From assembly GCA_033065855.1 (NCBI GenBank), contig JAVXUO010002275.1:124001-188000 (forward strand): a stretch of 64,000 nt of DNA. The letters are read 5' to 3'. Every line of letters starts with the position of its first letter. The first letter of the stretch is position 1. Position numbers and translations under genes: made by a program. Positions 15,459-63,990 of this stretch are shown piece after piece. The notes beneath the pieces are model-generated. The model was not told where the DNA came from and made no database searches. It saw only the letters and a list, made by a program, of their open reading frames with translations. This DNA is from Escallonia rubra. Its lineage: Eukaryota > Streptophyta > Magnoliopsida > Escalloniales > Escalloniaceae.

Positions 15459-16105
15459 TAACCTATTGGGCAAGTTACACTTATATCCCTGAGGTTTAGG
15501 GGTAATTACAGCCAAGGACAATAGTTTGGACAAATTACACTTATGTCCATTGACCAAACGGAATCTTAAAAACCCTAACGATTTTAATGAAAAGACTTTA
15601 TTACCCCTGAGTTGGAACCTTATTTATTTTTCAATGCCATTATTTCATCTTCTTATTTTTAATGCCATTAATGTCATTACTTCCCCCCCCCGCAAGCCCA
15701 TTTGGCCATTTCTGTCTGACATCACCCTTCGCCTGTCGCCGCACCCTTCCCCTTCCCCTTCCCCTTCCCCGTCGCCCCCACCCTCCCCCTTCCCCTTTCC
15801 CGTCGCCGGCGTCGCCTTCCCTCGAGATGGCAGCTGAGGCGTTGGTGATGGCACTCGGTGAAGGAGCGTGGGGCTGCTGATCGGAGTTACTGGCCGGCGA
15901 CGGGCTGCTGACCGGCGTTGCTGGCCGGCGACGGCCTGCTGACCGGACGGTTGCAGTGGTAACGGCACGATCGCATCGGCGCGATGCTCGCAGAGGCACG
16001 ATGAAGGGGCATTTCGGTGAAGGCGCGGGGAACGGAGTTAGTCGCCGGCGCCGGCGACCGCGTGTGCTGCCGGTAGTGGGGCTGCCATGGCGTGTAAGAG
16101 GGAAG

Positions 16106-16222
16106 GGACTGCCGGCGTGGGGCGAGGGGAAGAGGCTGCCGGTGTGGGGCGAGGGGAAGGGGCTGCCGGCGTGGGGCGAGGGGAAGGGGCTGCCGGCGTG
16201 GGGCGAGGGGAAGGGGCTGCCG
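16106..16222. repeat. 27-bp GC-rich tandem repeat inside MULE 1
   Basis: About four copies of a 27-bp unit that includes gctgccggcgtggggcgagg. The unit is a multiple of three, so on the minus strand it reads as a nine-residue repeat of the PRPTPAAPS type. Runs of gggg spaced by a few bases make the plus strand a good G-quadruplex candidate. A protein role is not supported by any start or splice signal. Confidence 0.85.
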
Positions 16223-16261
16223 ATGAGTTAGCCGGGGAAGACATTGGATATTTTTCAAGAA

Positions 16262-16425
16262 AACCCTAATTTGAACATTGAATATTTTTCAAGAAAACCC
16301 TAATTTGCAAATTAGGGTTTTAAGAATATCCTAATTTGCAGATTAGGGTTTCAGGAAAATCCTAATTTGCAAATTAGGGTTTCAAGAATATCCTAATTTG
16401 CAAATTAAGGTTTCAAGAATATCCT
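16262..16425. repeat. Palindromic cctaatttgcaaattagg tandem repeat
   Basis: Four to five degenerate copies of a unit of about 35 bases built around the self-complementary core cctaatttgcaaattagg, separated by tttcaagaatat-like spacers. It lies in the right part of MULE 1. It contains aaaccctaa-like sequence but is not a telomere array. Confidence 0.8.
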
Positions 16426-16700
16426 AAAACTAAAACTGATAAATAAATCATATATAATAATAAACAGATATTTTTCAATATATACAGTACAAGGGGTAGT
16501 ATCGTACAAGGGCAGTATTGTCATTTTTAAAATACAAAATGGTGAACAGTATATTTTTTGGATGGAACCCTAACGGTTGGACACGGGTGATACATTTGAA
16601 ACATTTTTGGGACATAAGTGTTACATTTTGAAACTTTGTGTCCTTGAGTGTAATTACCCCCAAACCTCAGGGACATAGGTGTAATTAGCCCTAACCTATT

Positions 16701-48119: not shown

Positions 48120-50076
48120 TTTTGTAGAAGAAGCTAAGTAATTGCAGCTTTCTTAGACTTGAAATATTTGTCTGCTTGTCGTGAACAAATCATCACATTG
48201 CGGTGCAAATCAGGCAGAAGCAAACTTTTCCACTTCTTCTTCATTTCAGTCTTGAGATAATTAGCAGCCCGAATCCCACATGGGATTTTCAGCTTTTACG
48301 ACCAAGCATACTTGAATATTTTTAACATGTGATTGACAGCCTTTACTAGACTTGAGATTTGTGTCGATCAGGGAAATAATCTGGAAAAGTAGAAAAAGCA
48401 AAAGGGAAACCTCTTCATATCATATATAGTTGAGCAAATGCCAGTTTTCCAGATTGACAGTTCATCCCAAAACCCAAGTTTTCACATCTGAAATCATAAA
48501 TTTTTCTCAACTTTTTCTGTACCAAACTTAATTAGAACATGTCTTTTCTTGATGAGCTAACCTTATGTGAAGTTGACTTATGAAATTGGAAAGGTCAGGT
48601 AAGATATTACAGCCTGTCTATCTTGTTGCACTTACTGGGTAACCATTACTAAGAAGGGTTATAGCAATTCATAAGCTTGCCCTTGGATCTTACCTGAGTT
48701 CTGCATCTAATTATTGTGAGGGAAAGTAGTACTGATGTGATTTGAGAGCTTTTTGGGGGGTGGAGATAAGCTTTTTCTCCCACTCTTGTCTGGGATAGAA
48801 AGTGATGATTAGGTGAACAAGACTCCAAATTCTTCATGTAATTAATCCCTGCATGAGTCGAGATCTTTAGGTCAAACGAGAACAAATATTCTATGCAATT
48901 CAATTGAATTCATGCACTTTGTCTAGCAAAGGAGAGAACCCTTTTTCTGCCACACCACATTTTCACCACCTCAGCAATTTGGAGCAGCCTTGGCAGCAAT
49001 CAACACAAGTGTGCTGTCTGAGATGCAATACTTCAGAAACTGCCAACAAGCAAGAACCTTAGTTTAAGCCGGCTTGGTGTTTGGCGTCACATCAGAGCGA
49101 ATCAATCATTAGTTTCTGTCACTTCATGGAGTGCAGTCGGCCGCCACGCCATTTTCCCAACCAAGTATAGCCATTGGCCTTCGAGGTTACGTACGTTTGT
49201 GACATTAATCCCTTTGTCCGTGCCTGCAACTCCCTTCCGAAGTAACCTAACACGGAACCGAAACGAACAAAGCTGCAGTACTTGTGGTTTGGCCGTGCAT
49301 CAAGGCTCAGGTCTGGGCTTCCTCGAGTACAATACGGATAATCAAACTGCCTCAAGGGCTGTTGTGTGGACTGTATCCAGGTTCAGCACACGCATCCCTC
49401 AAGAAACTGAACTCATGTTTGTTACTGTTCCTTTAGTTGTAAATATGTACTGTAGTAAATTGGTTTTGCAAGCATGATAACATTATTGAGTTTATTCTTT
49501 AATAATTTAAATTTTTAGAACAGATTATAATTCTTGCGTTACGATGTAAAATGTGTTGAACATGCATTGCGTATTATTTTGTGCACGTGCATTGTGTGCC
49601 CACAAGGCCTTGTTTAGCAAATATGAGCAAGCCGGCTGTATCCTTAAAGCTTATGGCAAGCTTGTGATTATGCCATGATTCACTTTTATAATGCGAGTTG
49701 TGGCCTTGGCCATTATATCAAAGTATGTGATCATGGCATCTACAAGAAAACTTTAGAGCAGTCCACATTATGGTCTCTTCTTTAGCCTGCAATGACACTG
49801 TCTAAGTTGGCATCAAGCTCTCACTTCCTTTAACATCTGGCTTTTTTGGTTTACCTTTTCGAAGTGGAATCAAATGGCAAGGTTCAACTCAGCTACAAAA
49901 AGCATATAAATGAGAAGGGCATTGTGTTATTCCTAAGTCATCGGTCTCCACTTTTTTTTTTTTGGTTGTTCGCTAAGTTGCGGCAAACAGGGATATCCTG
50001 GGGCCAAAAGTGAGCGGAACTTTGTGCTGGATCAGTCATGGCCTTGGGAGCTGGGATCAGTCATTTGTGCTGCTTC
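48120..50076. repeat. Duplicated MATE downstream block, copy 1
   Basis: Collinear with 57105-60546. Shared landmarks are gcagctttcttagacttgaa, aatcccacatgggattttca, atagcaattcataagcttgc, gaacaaat followed by cttctatg/attctatg, ttggagcagccttggcagca, agtgcagtcggccgccacgc and gtactgtatccag-like sequence near 49375. It is the 3' flank of MATE2 and so belongs to the tandem duplication unit. It supplies the empty sites for two insertions seen in copy 2. No conserved gene was recognised, although a frame of about 35 codons around 49280-49385 is nearly identical in the two copies. Confidence 0.85.
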
Positions 50077-53000
50077 TCAATTACTCAACAAAGGCTCAAC
50101 TTTCTTCTGGTGCCATTTATCCATTCTACTCCTTGCTTTCTCCACCTGAAAATTCTTATGTCAAGAGCTTTCACTCATATACAATATTGTCACGGTTCAT
50201 TTCATTGGTTTTCTTTTCTTGGAAAGATTTTGTACCAGAAGATAAGGAGCCAAGAATAGGTTGCCTGGCATTTCCATTTTTAATCTTTTTTTTTATTTTT
50301 ATATTTTGACTTCAAAATGATGGGCATAATTTTGGATTATGCATTGCAGAATTTCAAAAGTTTTCATTTGGGAGTCATATTTGGATTAAAAAAAAAAGCT
50401 AAAAATAGTAGCATACTCAACTTACAACTTTCACTGACGTTAATGAGCAGAAATTAGCATCGGGGCCATTTTACTTTCAAGATGAGAATGTTTATTTCTA
50501 CTATATTACACATTTATACACTCTTTTTGCCGCTGAAAAGTGAGTTAAGAGACAAGATATAGGATGAACAATATTGTAGAGCGTAGACATAACATTCTCG
50601 ACCATGACATGACATTTGACATATATATGAACTCTTTTCAATACTAACAGATAAGAACGCAGAAAAAGGAAATGTAACCCTTACCTCTTTACCCCAATCG
50701 GTTCGGAAGGTGACCCACAACAAAATGATAGTCTGCATGGCTGTGCCCCCTAACATCCCTGACCATATTCCCTACACAAAATCAAAAAGCCATTCAAAGC
50801 CCCTTGCACAACTTAAGCCAATACCTGATTTTTAGTCATTTTACCCTCCCTCCCTATCCTCATTGAAGATACTTCGTAGTTCATTCTAAAATTCAACAAA
50901 AATTACCTACAATAATAGCATATAGCTCCATTGTCTAGAGCTAATGATGAACATTTAATTTTTTTTTGATAAAGAAGCGATTTTATCTTTCAGGTAAAGT
51001 ACGTACAATCTCGTTCGATGGCGGGCAAAATAAAACGGAGCCTCTTTCACCCATACTAGGTAGTTTGAAATATTTCTTAAATGTTTAGCTAACAAGTGGC
51101 TACACGGTTGCCCGACCGCCTAACGGCCGGAACTCTACACAGATCATAACAATGAACAATCCTCTTGATGTGGTGATCCACGGTTCCTCCTCTCTAATAT
51201 GAACATTTCATAGTTCTACAAGTTAATTTTGGAAGATAGTCTCGTTTGAAGGGACATGTCTAAAAAAATTATGCGGAGTGTGAGAAGAAAAATAGACAGT
51301 AGTATACCTTAACACCAAGGTTGAATTTAAGGCCAAGAAGGGTACCCAGAGGAATGCCAACTACGTAGTAGCATCCGACGTTAACGTACGCAACGAATGC
51401 TTGCCATCCACATCCAACAGCCACACCTGCGATCATTAATAATCTTCGATTATCATAACATAAATAGAATGAGAGGAAGCATAGGTTTGTTTTGATGTTG
51501 TTATCCAGGGAATTCACATCCTTTTCCTTTATTACCTTTCATTTTGCCTTTAGAAGATTCAACATTTTATAACATCAAGACATTTGGGAAGTTGATGTTC
51601 GCACTCCATTTTTAATTACCACCTACGGTACTCCACTAGGGTCACTAAAGATCGAAAAAGTGTGGGCAAATAAAAAACCGTTATAAATTAAAGTGCCTCA
51701 TACAGATTCACAGTGAACGAAAGTAGTGTGTAAGTGGTGAAAAGTGGAGCTTGAATTTCGATTTCCTACATCTAAGAAACAAATGACATGAGAGTAACTC
51801 ATAACGTTTTAGTTTTGACTTTTGCATTTATCAATAGGTTTAAAGTGCGTTAGACATGTGTAAGTCTCTTCTCTCATTGCCGGTCAATTTGATTTCTAAT
51901 TGAATGTTTTGACACGGGGGGGCCGTTTCGTGCTCATTAAGTACGCACATCAATGAAAAAAGAAAATCATGGTCACTCAATATTGTAATTCATTCTCGCG
52001 TTTGATTTAGGCAAAAAAGGTACTATTAATGCGTAATATCGTTAATTGTTTTGAGTTGCATGCTTTAACACAATGAGTGACGGGAAACAAACATGTGATC
52101 TTGATCATGTTTTTGGACTTTGTTATATATGTTTTGTCCCTAACAAAGTATCAGAAGAAACACTTACCGGACAAAACAGGTTGAACACCGTTGAGGACTA
52201 TAGAGATGGCCAGGAGAGGGGTAAGTTCCGAGACTGCCTCGGCGACGGTGGCGCCGTCCGTGAAGGCGTAACTTATGACGTGGCGCAGCGCGAGCACCAC
52301 GACGGCACAGATCACCGCGATGATAAGCGAGCTCAAAGTCACCATCACAACTGCATATGCTGCCGATTTTGGATGCCCAGCACCCAGCTCATTGCTCACT
52401 CTCACACTGTTTTATTAACTTCATCACATTAGTACCTTATAAAGATGGATTCAATGCGGAATAAATATTGGATACTATCCGGAGGTTACAGGAAGACAAC
52501 TACGACCCTCACAGAGCGATAACTAGTGGTCCATCGTCACATATAGTTTGTGCCATTTTTGTTAACAACTTCGTGACATTTTTTACGTTACTAAATAAAA
52601 ATCATTAAAACATTTATCAACCACCAATTATTGCTATATGAGGTTGTGCTGTTGTGGCCATCTTCCCACGATCGTCACATCTGACCTTGCAGCTGCATTG
52701 AATCCCACTGAAATCATGAAAACCCATCCAAGGATTGTCCCACTGCATATAAGGAAAACATCTAATTGCTTATTGAACTCATTATTTAATAAGACAAAAG
52801 AGGAGAAATGTGCGGGGTTGTATGTTTAGCATTTTCATTTTGTATTTTCATTTTCATGATTTTCGTATTCAATTAAAAAATACGCTCCTGTATTTTTATC
52901 ATTTTCCCCAAAAAAAAATTTGCTACTTTTTTTACATTGGGTTAAGTTTGGGTAGAAAAAACTGTAATTTTACTTGGAACAAAAACTGAAAATGATAAAA

Positions 53001-60546: not shown

Positions 60547-63500
60547 CTATCCTGGGGCCAAAAGTGAGCGGAACTTTGTGCTGGATCCATCATATCCTTC
60601 GGAGCTGGGATCAGTCATTTGTGTTACTTCTCCATCACTCAACAAAGGCTCAACTTTCTTCTGGTGCCATTGATCCAATCTAGTCCTTGCTTTCTCCACC
60701 TGAAAATTCTTACGTCAAGAGCTTGCACTGATCATATATATTGTGAAGTTTGGCCAATACCCTGGGTATATAAGCAGTGATTTCAAATGCAAAGGCTAAT
60801 CGTATTCTGGAAACTTTACGTAAGGTAGAGTTTGGTTTTTTGGGGGTGAGAGTGAAAAGGATGACAGATTATAAGTCACTCTTACTGCCACTCTACAGAA
60901 TCGTACATGAGATTTTCGCCTCATACGGCTCCATTTCATAGTTTTTCTTTTCTTGGATTGATTGTACCAGAAGAAGAAGATCCAGGATAGGTTGCCTGGC
61001 ATTTTCATTTTCAATTTAAAAACAATAGCATTACTAATTTACAACTTTCGCTGATGTTAATGAGAAGGGTTAATTACTCACGGCACCCCTGAGGTTTGCC
61101 CTAAATTACACACAGACCCCCTATCTTTTGAAAATTACACTCCGCTCCCACAGGTTTGTACCCGCATTTCACGGAGCCCCACAAAATTGACGGGGACCCT
61201 AACTCTGTCTAAAGATTCCCTGACACTTTACTTTTTGAATTTTTTATTCCCGAATTGCCCTCCATTTCTTGAGTAAAACCCCCCTTTGCCCTTTAGGGTT
61301 TTTCTTCTTCTTCTTCTTCTTTCTCTTTCCCCCTTACAGACCCTTTACTACTTTCTCCTTGTTCCTCCCTTTCTTCCTTCCCTTCATTCTTTCTCTTCTA
61401 ACCAAAAAATGTCAAGGATCTATAACAAAAACTCATCAAGCAAGCAAGAGAGAAGAAAGACTAGATATAAGTTTCATAAGTTTTTTCTTCCTTCCCAGCA
61501 GCCACAACAAGCAATAAAAATAAGACATAAGTTTTTTTTCTTCCTTCTATTTCTCAGCCCCATCAGAACTCACGCGCATACATGCAAAAATTGATAATTC
61601 GTACTCCTTGGGGAGCTTCTTGCCGGCCTTGGGCTTCTTCTCGGCAGGGGCCTTCTCGGCGACGGTGGGCTTCTTCTCCTCCGCCGGCTTCTTCTCCTCC
61701 GCCGGCTTCTTCTCCAGCGATGGACTCTGGCGTCACCTACAGTGTACACCACGACACAACAGCGGCCTTGGGCTTCTTCTCGGCGGGGGCCTTCTCGGCG
61801 ACGGTGGGCTTCTTCTTCTCCGTCGGCTTCTTCTCCGGCGATGGACTTCGGCGTCACCTACAGTGTACACCACGACACAACAGCGGCGACCACCGCGCCA
61901 CAGCCACCATTGCGCGGGATTTATCATCTGTGCCATCTCTGGCACCATCTTCGGTGACATCTCGTACGTGGTCAGCCACCCCTCATTCTCCGGCCATGCC
62001 CCTCACCGGAAGTACCGCGCTCCACTGCGACACCAAACACCACACGACTTCATCACCGGTGAACCCAAAGCCGCATGCCTGACACTGTCGCCCTCCATTG
62101 GAAGCACCGCCTACCGCAACCTCCAAAACAGCCATGGAATCACTACTGTCGGCAGCGTATCCGGTCCCCGATGGCCGATTTCGGTCAGTGTAGCCAAGAG
62201 TGAAGAGCCAGATAGTCGGGGATACGCTGAGAACTAGTCATTGTCCAAAACAGCCATGAAACTAGCCAAGAGAACTTGAGGAGTGCATTCGTCCTTGGTG
62301 GCTTATGAAACTGTGTAGTTAATATACAAGGGTAAAAATGTCTTTTTGTGTCCCACAGTTAACACCGTCGAAGAAATGGAGCGGAGTGTAATTATCAAAA
62401 GATAGGGGGGTACGTGTGTAATTTAGGGTAAACCTCAGGGGTGCCGTGAGTAATTAACCCTAATGAGAAGAAATTTGCATCAGGGCCATTTCACTAAGTT
62501 TTCAAGAATAAAATGTCTATTTCCACTATGTTACACCTTTTTACACCCTTTTTGGGCTGAAAAGTGAATTTGTGACAAAATATTAAATTTTTTAATAGGG
62601 GAAAGTAGGGAATGACCCCCTCTACTTTACACGCTGTGCGTTTTTCCCCCCTCCACTTCAAATTTAAACACTAAACTCCCCCACAGTTTAAGAAAATGGG
62701 CACGGTTAATTGACAGTAACAGATCTTTGTAAAATACCATTTTTATCCTTCCATATAACCTTCAATTTTTCGGGAAGCATGCCCAAACCCGTGCCCTTCC
62801 CTTCTTCTTCCTCTTCCTGTTCTTCACTCATTTTCCCCTTCCCATTCTCTGTATTTCCCCTTCCCCATAGACCGTAGTTGTGGTTGTGATTGCGATTGGT
62901 GGCGGTTGGGTGTCTGGTGACGAGGCTTGGGAGTCATGGTCGCCGGCGATGGTGATTGGGAGTCGTGGGTGGCCGGTGTAGGTGATTGGGTTTGATGATC
63001 TATTGGGGTTTTAAAGATTGGGTTTGGTTGTGCGGCCACGAGGTGGGCCAATCGATTGGTGGCCGTGGGTGGCTGGTGGAGGGACTGCTCTGACATTGGC
63101 CGTGGGTGGGCCAATCGATTGGTGGCGAGCAGGAGTCTGCGGCGGACATATGGGGACTCGGGTGTGCGGTGGTGGAGATGGTGACCGGAGCTCTGGCGTC
63201 CGTCACTGAAGGCTACTTTGACTCCGGGGCTGTTGCGGGCTGTTGCAGCGGGGAGTCTGCCGGGGCGAGCAGGAGTCTGCCGGGGCTGTTATAGCCGCGC
63301 GGTAATCGGTGGTAGTTGAAGGCTACTTTGACGTCGGTGCCGCCGTCGTTCCGGTGGTGTCGTGGTAAAAGGATGGTGACCAGAGCTCCGGCGTCCATCA
63401 CTGAAGGCTACTTTGACTCCGGGGCTGTTGCGGCGGGGAGTCTGCCGGGGCGAGCAGGAGTCTGCCGGGGCTGTTGCGGCGGCGCAGTAATCGGGGTAGT

Positions 63501-63990
63501 TGAAGGCTACTTTGACGCCGGCGCCTGCGCCGTTCCGGTGGTGCCGTGGTAAAAGGTGAAGAGGAAGAAATTGAAATTGAAGAGCCAGGAAAAGGGGCAA
63601 AATTGTCATTTAAAAAAGAAAAACTTTAGTCAGCCCATGTGTTGACCACGCGCTGTTTAGTTAACAGTTTCCGTCAACCGTGCCCATTTTCTTAAACTGT
63701 GTGGGAGGGGGGGGTTTAGTGTTTAAATTTGAAGTGGAGGGGGGCAAAACGCACAACGTGTAAAGTAGAGGAAGTCATTCCCTATTTCCCCCTTTTTAAT
63801 ATGAACACTGTAGTGGAGCATGAAGATAGACATTCTCGACCATGACATGACATTTGACATATATTTGAACTCTTTTTCATACTAATGAGAAAGCAATCCT
63901 TACCTCTTTACTCCAATCGGTCCGGATGGTGACCCACAACAAAATGATAGTCTGCATGGCTGTGCCCCCTAACATCCCTGACCATATTCC
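60547..63990 (-). CDS. DTX40-like: MATE transporter 3, DETOXIFICATION 40-like, last two exons
   Basis: Partial gene running past the right edge. Exon 6 is 63990-63904 (87 bases; [20 protein letters not shown], then TIRTDWSKE) and exon 7 is 60699-60547. Both splice sites match those of MATE2 (ctacag-type gtag|GGA, GAG|gtaagg, ttcag|GTGGAG). Exon 7 starts [20 protein letters not shown] like MATE2 but then reads [20 protein letters not shown] and continues to LLAPG and a TAG, 27 codons beyond the MATE2 stop. The intron between them is 3.2 kb, against 539 bases in MATE2, because two Mutator-like elements and a plastid DNA piece lie in it. Whether it is still spliced efficiently is unknown. Confidence 0.88.
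60743..60932 (-). other. Nuclear insertion of plastid DNA (rps12 intron 3' end and exon 2)
   Basis: On the minus strand the sequence runs from a group II intron end (gagccgtatgaggcgaaaat, then ctgtagagtggcagtaagag) into coding sequence [18 protein letters not shown] and FEITAYIP, which is plastid ribosomal protein S12, exon 2. Substitutions (S for the usual A, SRI for ARV, AFA for TSG) and loss of frame after IPRV show that it is a decayed copy. The paralogous intron of MATE2 (near 50170-50200) lacks it. It is a nuclear plastid DNA (NUPT) fragment with no function expected. Confidence 0.88.
61067..62460. mobile_element. Mutator-like element 2, Pack-MULE candidate, 9-bp TSD
   Basis: The perfect 9-bp direct repeat taatgagaa stands at 61058-61066 and 62461-62469. 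The TIRs are GGGTTAATTACTCACGGCAC at both ends and continue with CCCTGAGGTTT and CCTAAATTACACAC for about 80 bases. The paralogous site in MATE2 (near 50440) reads gttaatgagcagaaattagc without the element. There is no transposase. The interior is GC-rich at 61600-62230 and contains two copies of a histone H2B tail fragment, listed separately. Confidence 0.93.
61602..61886 (-). pseudogene. Captured histone H2B N-terminal tail, two tandem copies
   Basis: On the minus strand 61715-61603 reads [18 protein letters not shown] followed by [19 protein letters not shown], the Lys/Ala/Pro-rich N-terminal tail of plant histone H2B just before the globular fold. A second, shorter copy (61837-61763) reads [12 protein letters not shown] and [12 protein letters not shown]. 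The two lie in a 139-bp tandem repeat that also includes the flanking piece ggtgacgcc...tacactgtag. There is no H2B start codon and no histone fold, so this is a gene fragment inside the transposon, not a histone gene. Confidence 0.85.
63127..63192 (+). pseudogene. Captured kinase fragment (subdomain IX, MAPKKK-like)
   Basis: The plus-strand frame reads [20 protein letters not shown] and then [18 protein letters not shown] fits the D-x-W-x-L-G-C-x-x-x-E-M-x-T-G block of plant MAPKKK-type kinases. A second piece at 63008-63037 (LKIGFGCA, in another frame) may be a decayed DFG region. No complete kinase fold is present. Confidence 0.6.
63178..63553. repeat. Direct duplication of about 190 bp inside MULE 3
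   Basis: Segments 63178-63373 and 63374-63553 share ggtgacc, gagctc, gaaggctactttgactccgg, gcggggagtctgccggggcg, agcaggagtctgccggggct and tgttccggtggtg-type ends. Shorter repeats (gggccaatcgattggtgg near 63047 and 63109) precede it. Confidence 0.85.

Follow-up and report, generated by a model that had tools for sequence, protein, structure and literature searches.

How does a piece of a core histone gene come to lie within a MATE gene, in its last intron, and has it any role there? The locus that raises this question belongs to Escallonia rubra and lies in a stretch of 64,000 nucleotides of contig JAVXUO010002275.1 (hereafter the window), for which a first-pass annotation, made from the letters alone, had proposed a Pack-MULE carrying a duplicated histone H2B tail. 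Following the element through the host genome assembly (566,129,122 bases; 566 Mb) leads to a reading to which we assign a probability of about 0.93: a Pack-MULE would have captured a piece of a native H2B gene, been spread in trans, later undergone truncation and duplication of this cargo and inserted into the MATE gene, with the cargo as silenced, non-coding sequence.

The element and its insertion site

Three MATE genes stand in a row in the window, all on the minus strand. The last exon of MATE gene 3 (60550..60699, minus strand) is recognised by its tblastn paralogy with MATE genes 2 and 1, and the preceding exon (63901..63990, minus strand), which is cut by the window end, is 80% identical to its counterpart in MATE gene 1. 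Between these two exons lies the element, 1394 bp at 61067..62460 (features given here without a strand were assigned none), and its intronic location is thus as first described. It is flanked by the target-site duplication (TSD) TAATGAGAA, at 61058..61066 on the left and 62461..62469 on the right, both flanks being alike with 0 mismatches over 9 bp; in 200,000 draws of random site pairs from the window, a perfect 9-mer turned up twice. The terminal inverted repeats (TIRs), of 82 bp on the left (61067..61148, plus strand) and 83 bp on the right (62378..62460, minus strand), align with 78 of 83 columns identical, a length a little below the 100 to 500 bp quoted as typical of MULE TIRs in a passage of PMC3310237, and the 27-base end sequence is present in the window solely at the two element ends (0 expected by shuffling). 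The perfect 9-bp duplication and the long TIRs reported earlier are both borne out.

The last intron measures 3201 bp in MATE gene 3 versus 536 bp in MATE gene 2 (50146..50681, minus strand). The latter aligns across the insertion point as an empty site with a single target (TGCTCATTA vs TTCTCATTA, minus strand; 8 of 9 bases alike), and thus the element arrived after MATE genes 2 and 3 separated. A second full-length copy with 94% identity (L009) is found elsewhere in the host genome and has its own perfect TSD; this copy and the empty paralogous intron together indicate that the element transposed as a unit. GC content is 0.605 at 61600-62240 versus 0.393 for the window. Scanned against Pfam, eight open frames from the interior, among which short frames are partly covered, revealed no transposase and no family above its cut-off, and in the search for host fragments besides H2B, Pfam and PDB gave weak matches to the interior, none above cut-off or below E = 0.2.

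The machinery missing from the interior is encoded by a relative with the same ends. The host genome contains 363 occurrences of the first 28 TIR bases (and 0 of the reversed control), four TIR pairs among the places listed are about 5.9 kb apart, and the one that was fetched (L098, host contig C940) is an element of 5883 bp with the perfect TSD TTGAATCAA. It has in common with the window element the left terminal and subterminal region (element bases 1-351, 61067..61417; 90%) and the right one (bases 1241-1394, 62307..62460; 81%), and it contains an 883-aa open frame with MULE, DBD_Tnp_Mut, Transposase_mut and SWIM domains (PF10551, PF03108, PF00872 and PF04434, all above cut-offs). MULE transposases are numerous in this genome, 150 having been scored of 3309 candidates. 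We took as MULEs those elements with a TSD of 9-11 bp, long TIRs, and TIRs in common with an element encoding a Mutator-type transposase, and as Pack-MULEs those without transposase, with a fragment of a host non-transposon gene, and moved as a unit; every one of these features is found here. With its TSD, TIRs, native H2B fragment, empty site and transposase-coding relative, the element is a true Pack-MULE, as had been claimed; the kind is known, and a high-copy cargo from an essential gene is unusual.

Other insertions were observed in the window. A second MULE-like element lies in the same MATE intron at 62598-63792, with a perfect 9-bp TSD (TTTTTAATA), long TIRs, a GC-rich interior and an internal duplication of about 185 bp, and a third is found at 15468-16691, with a perfect 9-bp TSD (TAACCTATT), internal tandem repeats and a TIR of 69 identities over 85 columns. 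The MATE gene 3 intron also contains a plastid DNA insertion (60745-60931, minus strand), absent from the MATE gene 2 intron, which consists of a group II intron end (Rfam RF00029, 43.2 bits) and then a degraded piece of rps12 whose best PDB match is chloroplast S12 (E 1.1e-9). In MATE gene 2, the reading that matches the last exon (49996-50145, minus strand) has two in-frame stops, and this gene may end early.

The H2B tail and its native donor

On its minus strand the element reads as an H2B tail over 41 residues (61604-61726). Searched with phmmer against the PDB, this reading matched five distinct sequences up to E = 1, all of them histone H2B (best E = 2.9e-4); the reversed peptide matched none up to E = 1, and 0 of 20,000 shuffles scored as high. 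The first tail copy (61604..61716, minus strand; codons up to 41) agrees with the host H2B gene L049 at 104 of 108 aligned bases, and the second (61764..61838, minus strand) at 69 of 72. Both the minus-strand tail and the native gene that the first-pass annotation expected to match it are therefore real. So is the tandem duplication it described, with a unit of 139 bp (61625..61763, minus strand), which includes one extra 18-bp KPAEEK-type unit, and another of 121 bp (61764..61884, minus strand); apart from one 18-bp gap, the two units agree at 115 of 121 aligned bases. The duplication unit contains about 45 bp of non-H2B sequence, and hence the H2B piece was already fused to other sequence when the duplication took place.

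The KPAE-rich reading might be no H2B at all and have arisen by chance, as a low-complexity frame of the GC-rich DNA of the transposon; in favour of this are the 18-bp tandem units that occur in this stretch and the shorter second tail, which alone finds no phmmer match in the PDB up to E = 1 and whose score of 85 exceeds by a narrow margin the maximum of 82 among its 20,000 shuffles. Such a frame is scarcely conceivable, and we reject it: the match to the native gene refutes it, the reversed peptide and the shuffles fail, relatives within the family carry the whole histone fold, and a degenerate-codon scan over 11 residues gave 0 matches in prokaryote or viral collections. TIR and H2B patterns likewise gave 0 matches in the viral and prokaryote collections, a negative that says little because these contain no plants.

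Homology to H2B being established, the donor can be sought among the host genes. A search of the host genome for the H2B core returned 87 matched stretches, with 95 of 95 candidates scored, and our classification, which covers all but 19 of the 87, distinguishes six intact, typical native H2B genes (L048-L053) among the classified stretches. Five of these six (L048-L051 and L053) are situated on host contig C1792, within about 221 kb. Thirteen further H2B-like loci are more diverged, do not have the ends of the family, and have 66-83% identity to the L049 coding sequence (CDS) where aligned. On the side of the elements, eight full-length copies have about 95-97% identity to L049 over 383-413 aligned bases; the majority sequence of the family copies differs from L049 at 9 of 414 bases. 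In the two copies that reach into the 3'UTR (L054 and L070), it is again L049 whose 3'UTR gives the best match among the six native genes (93% and 89% over 136-137 columns). By sequence comparison, then, the donor is a native H2B gene close to L049. In the tree, one branch (90/87; recovered in 89% of 200 bootstrap trees) separates 21 long MULE copies from the six native genes, a split that fits one capture.

A family with longer pieces of H2B

The window element is no lone capture and belongs to a large family. An element search of the host genome gave 202 matched stretches, with 40 of 2126 candidates scored, so that all family copy numbers given here are lower bounds. Among the 39 loci fetched from this search, 37 have H2B and two (L015 and L031) do not; adding 21 H2B-bearing elements from the H2B-core search and the window itself gives 61 distinct loci, and H2B is present in 59 of them, a biased share because 21 loci were chosen for having it. 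At least 59 element loci in the genome thus bear H2B, outnumbering the six intact native genes that were detected by about ten to one. Both ends are available for 52 of the 60 fetched loci, with a perfect 9-bp TSD in 33 of the 52 and one mismatch in nine.

The breakpoints of the H2B piece recur across the family. Its 5' breakpoint falls at CDS base 27 in 40 of the 59 H2B-bearing loci and at base 31 in 11 (27 or 31 in 51/59). The 3' ends lie at 439-440 (20 loci), 121-123 (17, the class of the window element), 371 (nine), 254-256 (nine) and 448-450 (two), with two others; 22 of the 59 align to within 11 bases of the gene end, and L054 and L070 extend 66 bp into the 3'UTR. Taken together, these ends place the start of the captured piece, at the sequence level, near codon 9 and its end beyond the stop codon, 66 bp or more into the 3'UTR. 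The earlier proposal that just the 5' part of an H2B gene was captured thus does not hold, and the window copy would have inherited a later truncation at codon 41, common to 17 of the 59 loci (3' ends at CDS 121 or 123). To judge from these alignments, it is a member of a later, truncated and re-duplicated subfamily.

The arrangement of the interior indicates how this subfamily may have been assembled. In long-H2B members, element bases 1-206 are followed by H2B and then by bases 697-1151 and 1241-1394, and the GC-rich interior "mid" (61885..62217) is common to H2B-bearing members. In window-type members, bases 1-411 and 412-536 precede the cut tail; the segment that follows the cut H2B piece in this tail-only subfamily (61478..61603) is also present in the H2B-free L015 and L031, which have the window-type front half and the same ends, and neither H2B nor "mid". 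In view of that shared front half, window-type elements may be hybrids of long-H2B members and members of the L015/L031 type. In the interior tree the nearest relatives of the window element are L009, L010 and L011 (98/90 and 98/88), which have two or three tails. The tail-only class requires three changes on this tree and is recovered as a single group in 0% of bootstrap trees, L017 and L040 being placed elsewhere, in a poorly resolved part.

If the tail had instead been taken directly, already short, from the 5' portion of an H2B gene in a capture separate from that of the long copies, this would agree with the one 3' cut (CDS 121-123) and the different left half of the tail-only copies, whose codon-41 truncation may have more than one origin. 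We regard it nonetheless as very unlikely, as tail-only and long copies have a common 5' breakpoint and are alike in the linker and the "mid" interior beside it. Under the preferred scenario of long capture followed by loss, a non-autonomous Mutator-like element would have taken up, as one uninterrupted piece, the part of a native H2B gene closely akin to L049 that begins near codon 9, includes the stop codon and ends within the 3'UTR, and the transposase of a same-ended relative would have spread the H2B-bearing element. Later copies would have lost parts of H2B; in one lineage H2B would have been cut at codon 41 and joined to the segment found in H2B-free members, the tail would then have been duplicated two or three times in tandem, and one copy would have jumped into the last MATE gene intron after the MATE gene duplication. 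The order of these events and the mobilisation in trans we infer, together with the state of the cargo as silenced, non-coding passenger sequence.

Pack-MULEs, their GC-rich cargo and their TSDs have been described in parts of PMC8903248, PMC4858842 and PMC3310237. As far as those accounts go, the present family resembles the Pack-MULEs of rice and other plants in being non-autonomous, with long TIRs, a 9-bp TSD, a host coding fragment and GC-rich cargo, and in being likely moved by the transposase of a relative; it differs in carrying the greater part of a core histone gene, at 59 loci or more. Tomato PM-ZIBP, by the figures in a section of PMC3310237, has 13-14 copies per captured fragment. 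Animal Pack-TIR elements, as presented in a part of PMC8277862, offer another capture by DNA transposons that involves an H2B gene, the human H2BC15, an intronic piece of which was duplicated and came to serve as the 3'UTR of that same gene; here, in contrast, most of the H2B coding sequence was carried off and multiplied. KIU/Vandal of Arabidopsis, in section 11 of PMC13317346, is likewise a MULE with a host-derived domain, although it has no TIRs and its captured Ulp1 domain forms part of a conserved working gene, whereas the H2B here looks non-functional. Capture of H2B by a plant MULE was not found in any paper among the titles, abstract starts and selected passages covered, mostly outside subscription journals.

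Decay and coding capacity of the cargo

Raised CG and CHG transitions mark plant methylation. In the H2B parts of the element copies, C-to-T type transitions amount to 0.068 in CG, 0.051 in CHG and 0.017 in CHH contexts, a pattern absent from transversions (0.008, 0.011 and 0.006, respectively), with permutation p = 5e-5 for each context contrast in a test that ignores the common ancestry of the copies. The adjacent non-H2B interior behaves like the H2B part (CG 0.074, CHG 0.060, CHH 0.015), and the contrast is weaker at the left end (0.080, 0.068 and 0.050). Native H2B genes have no such excess over all sites (CG 0.022, CHG 0.017, CHH 0.023), although their third positions alone, too few for a clear pattern, give 0.046 for CG, 0.093 for CHG on nine sites and 0.036 for CHH. 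The CG and CHG decay suggests that the copies have been methylated over a long time, probably with the H2B part included; since this part decays like the neighbouring interior, H2B would not have been spared methylation over the long run.

Alternatively, the H2B copies might affect the native H2B genes by way of small RNA, or protect the family against silencing, H2B being essential. Exact 21-mers in common with native H2B CDS are present in 57 of the 61 loci (24-mers in 55), and the window element has 53 such 21-mers and 46 24-mers, with no common 21-mer outside its H2B parts; as far as these matches go, small-RNA action in trans on native H2B is possible. An essential cargo as camouflage is, moreover, an already published idea (PMC13317346, in its section 11). 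Both proposals appear unlikely given that cargo and interior decay alike and that the native genes are free of the excess over all sites, and the decay pattern does not support camouflage from methylation. Concerning the antisense RNA suggested by the first-pass annotation, the H2B piece and the MATE gene share a strand, and a MATE pre-mRNA would therefore contain H2B as sense sequence; for antisense RNA the opposite strand would have to be transcribed.

Taking the cargo as a silenced passenger, the family poses a problem for its host, as silencing of the transposon may silence the gene, a conflict between silencing an element and harming its essential donor that is laid out in section 11 of PMC13317346. 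The family offers a good natural experiment on the way in which plants silence transposons loaded with part of an essential gene. H2B is both essential and encoded by several genes; dozens of transposon-borne copies of varied length, together with six intact genes, constitute a series for study, in which one may ask what amount of common sequence suffices to elicit small RNA or methylation, or to harm the native genes. Tentatively, and with more doubt than confidence, we consider that the family has multiplied an essential core-histone gene to about ten times its intact natives, and that the plant methylates the H2B of the elements and spares the native genes despite the common 21- and 24-mers, so that a working rule would tell cargo from gene. 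If this is true, the family would be a ready-made system for finding that rule.

The coding capacity of the cargo points in the same direction as its decay, the H2B looking dead by its sequence. The window copy has no H2B fold. Upstream of each of its two tails, as far as the nearest stop, there is no ATG in frame, so the chimeric peptide once envisaged for it is unlikely. In the family, the fold was matched in 41 loci, of which 12 are open across it and 29 are cut, shifted or stopped; an in-frame ATG lies upstream of the open fold in two of the 12 (L044 and L062) and is absent in ten. The marks by which we would recognise a functional H2B gene, namely a start codon, an open fold and purifying selection, were not found together. 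Expected counts of changes were obtained from the mutation spectrum of the neighbouring interior. Singletons comprise 40 synonymous, 72 non-synonymous and five stop changes, versus 34.1, 72.9 and 3.0 expected (p = 0.22), and changes in up to three copies comprise 70, 114 and eight, versus 51.6, 113.9 and 5.0 (p = 0.028); a 20-copy version with correction for mutation bias gave p = 0.066. The pooled pN/pS of nine long copies is 0.38, uncorrected for mutation bias, and the selection it would imply is mostly gone once the mutation spectrum is allowed for. The cargo thus seems to evolve near neutrality, with weak past constraint possible.

A cargo useful to the element or the plant, with some copies making an H2B-like protein, would account for the 12 long open frames through the fold, two of them with an in-frame ATG, for the uncorrected pN/pS and for the weak non-synonymous deficit among changes in up to three copies. 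We deem it highly improbable, considering that the captured piece comes without the native start codon, that singletons fit neutrality and include more stop changes than expected, that the fold is broken in most loci where it is matched, and that the sequence bears the CG and CHG decay. As a minor observation, the open frame of L044 and L062 runs through the whole H2B fold and is fused to extra sequence at both ends.
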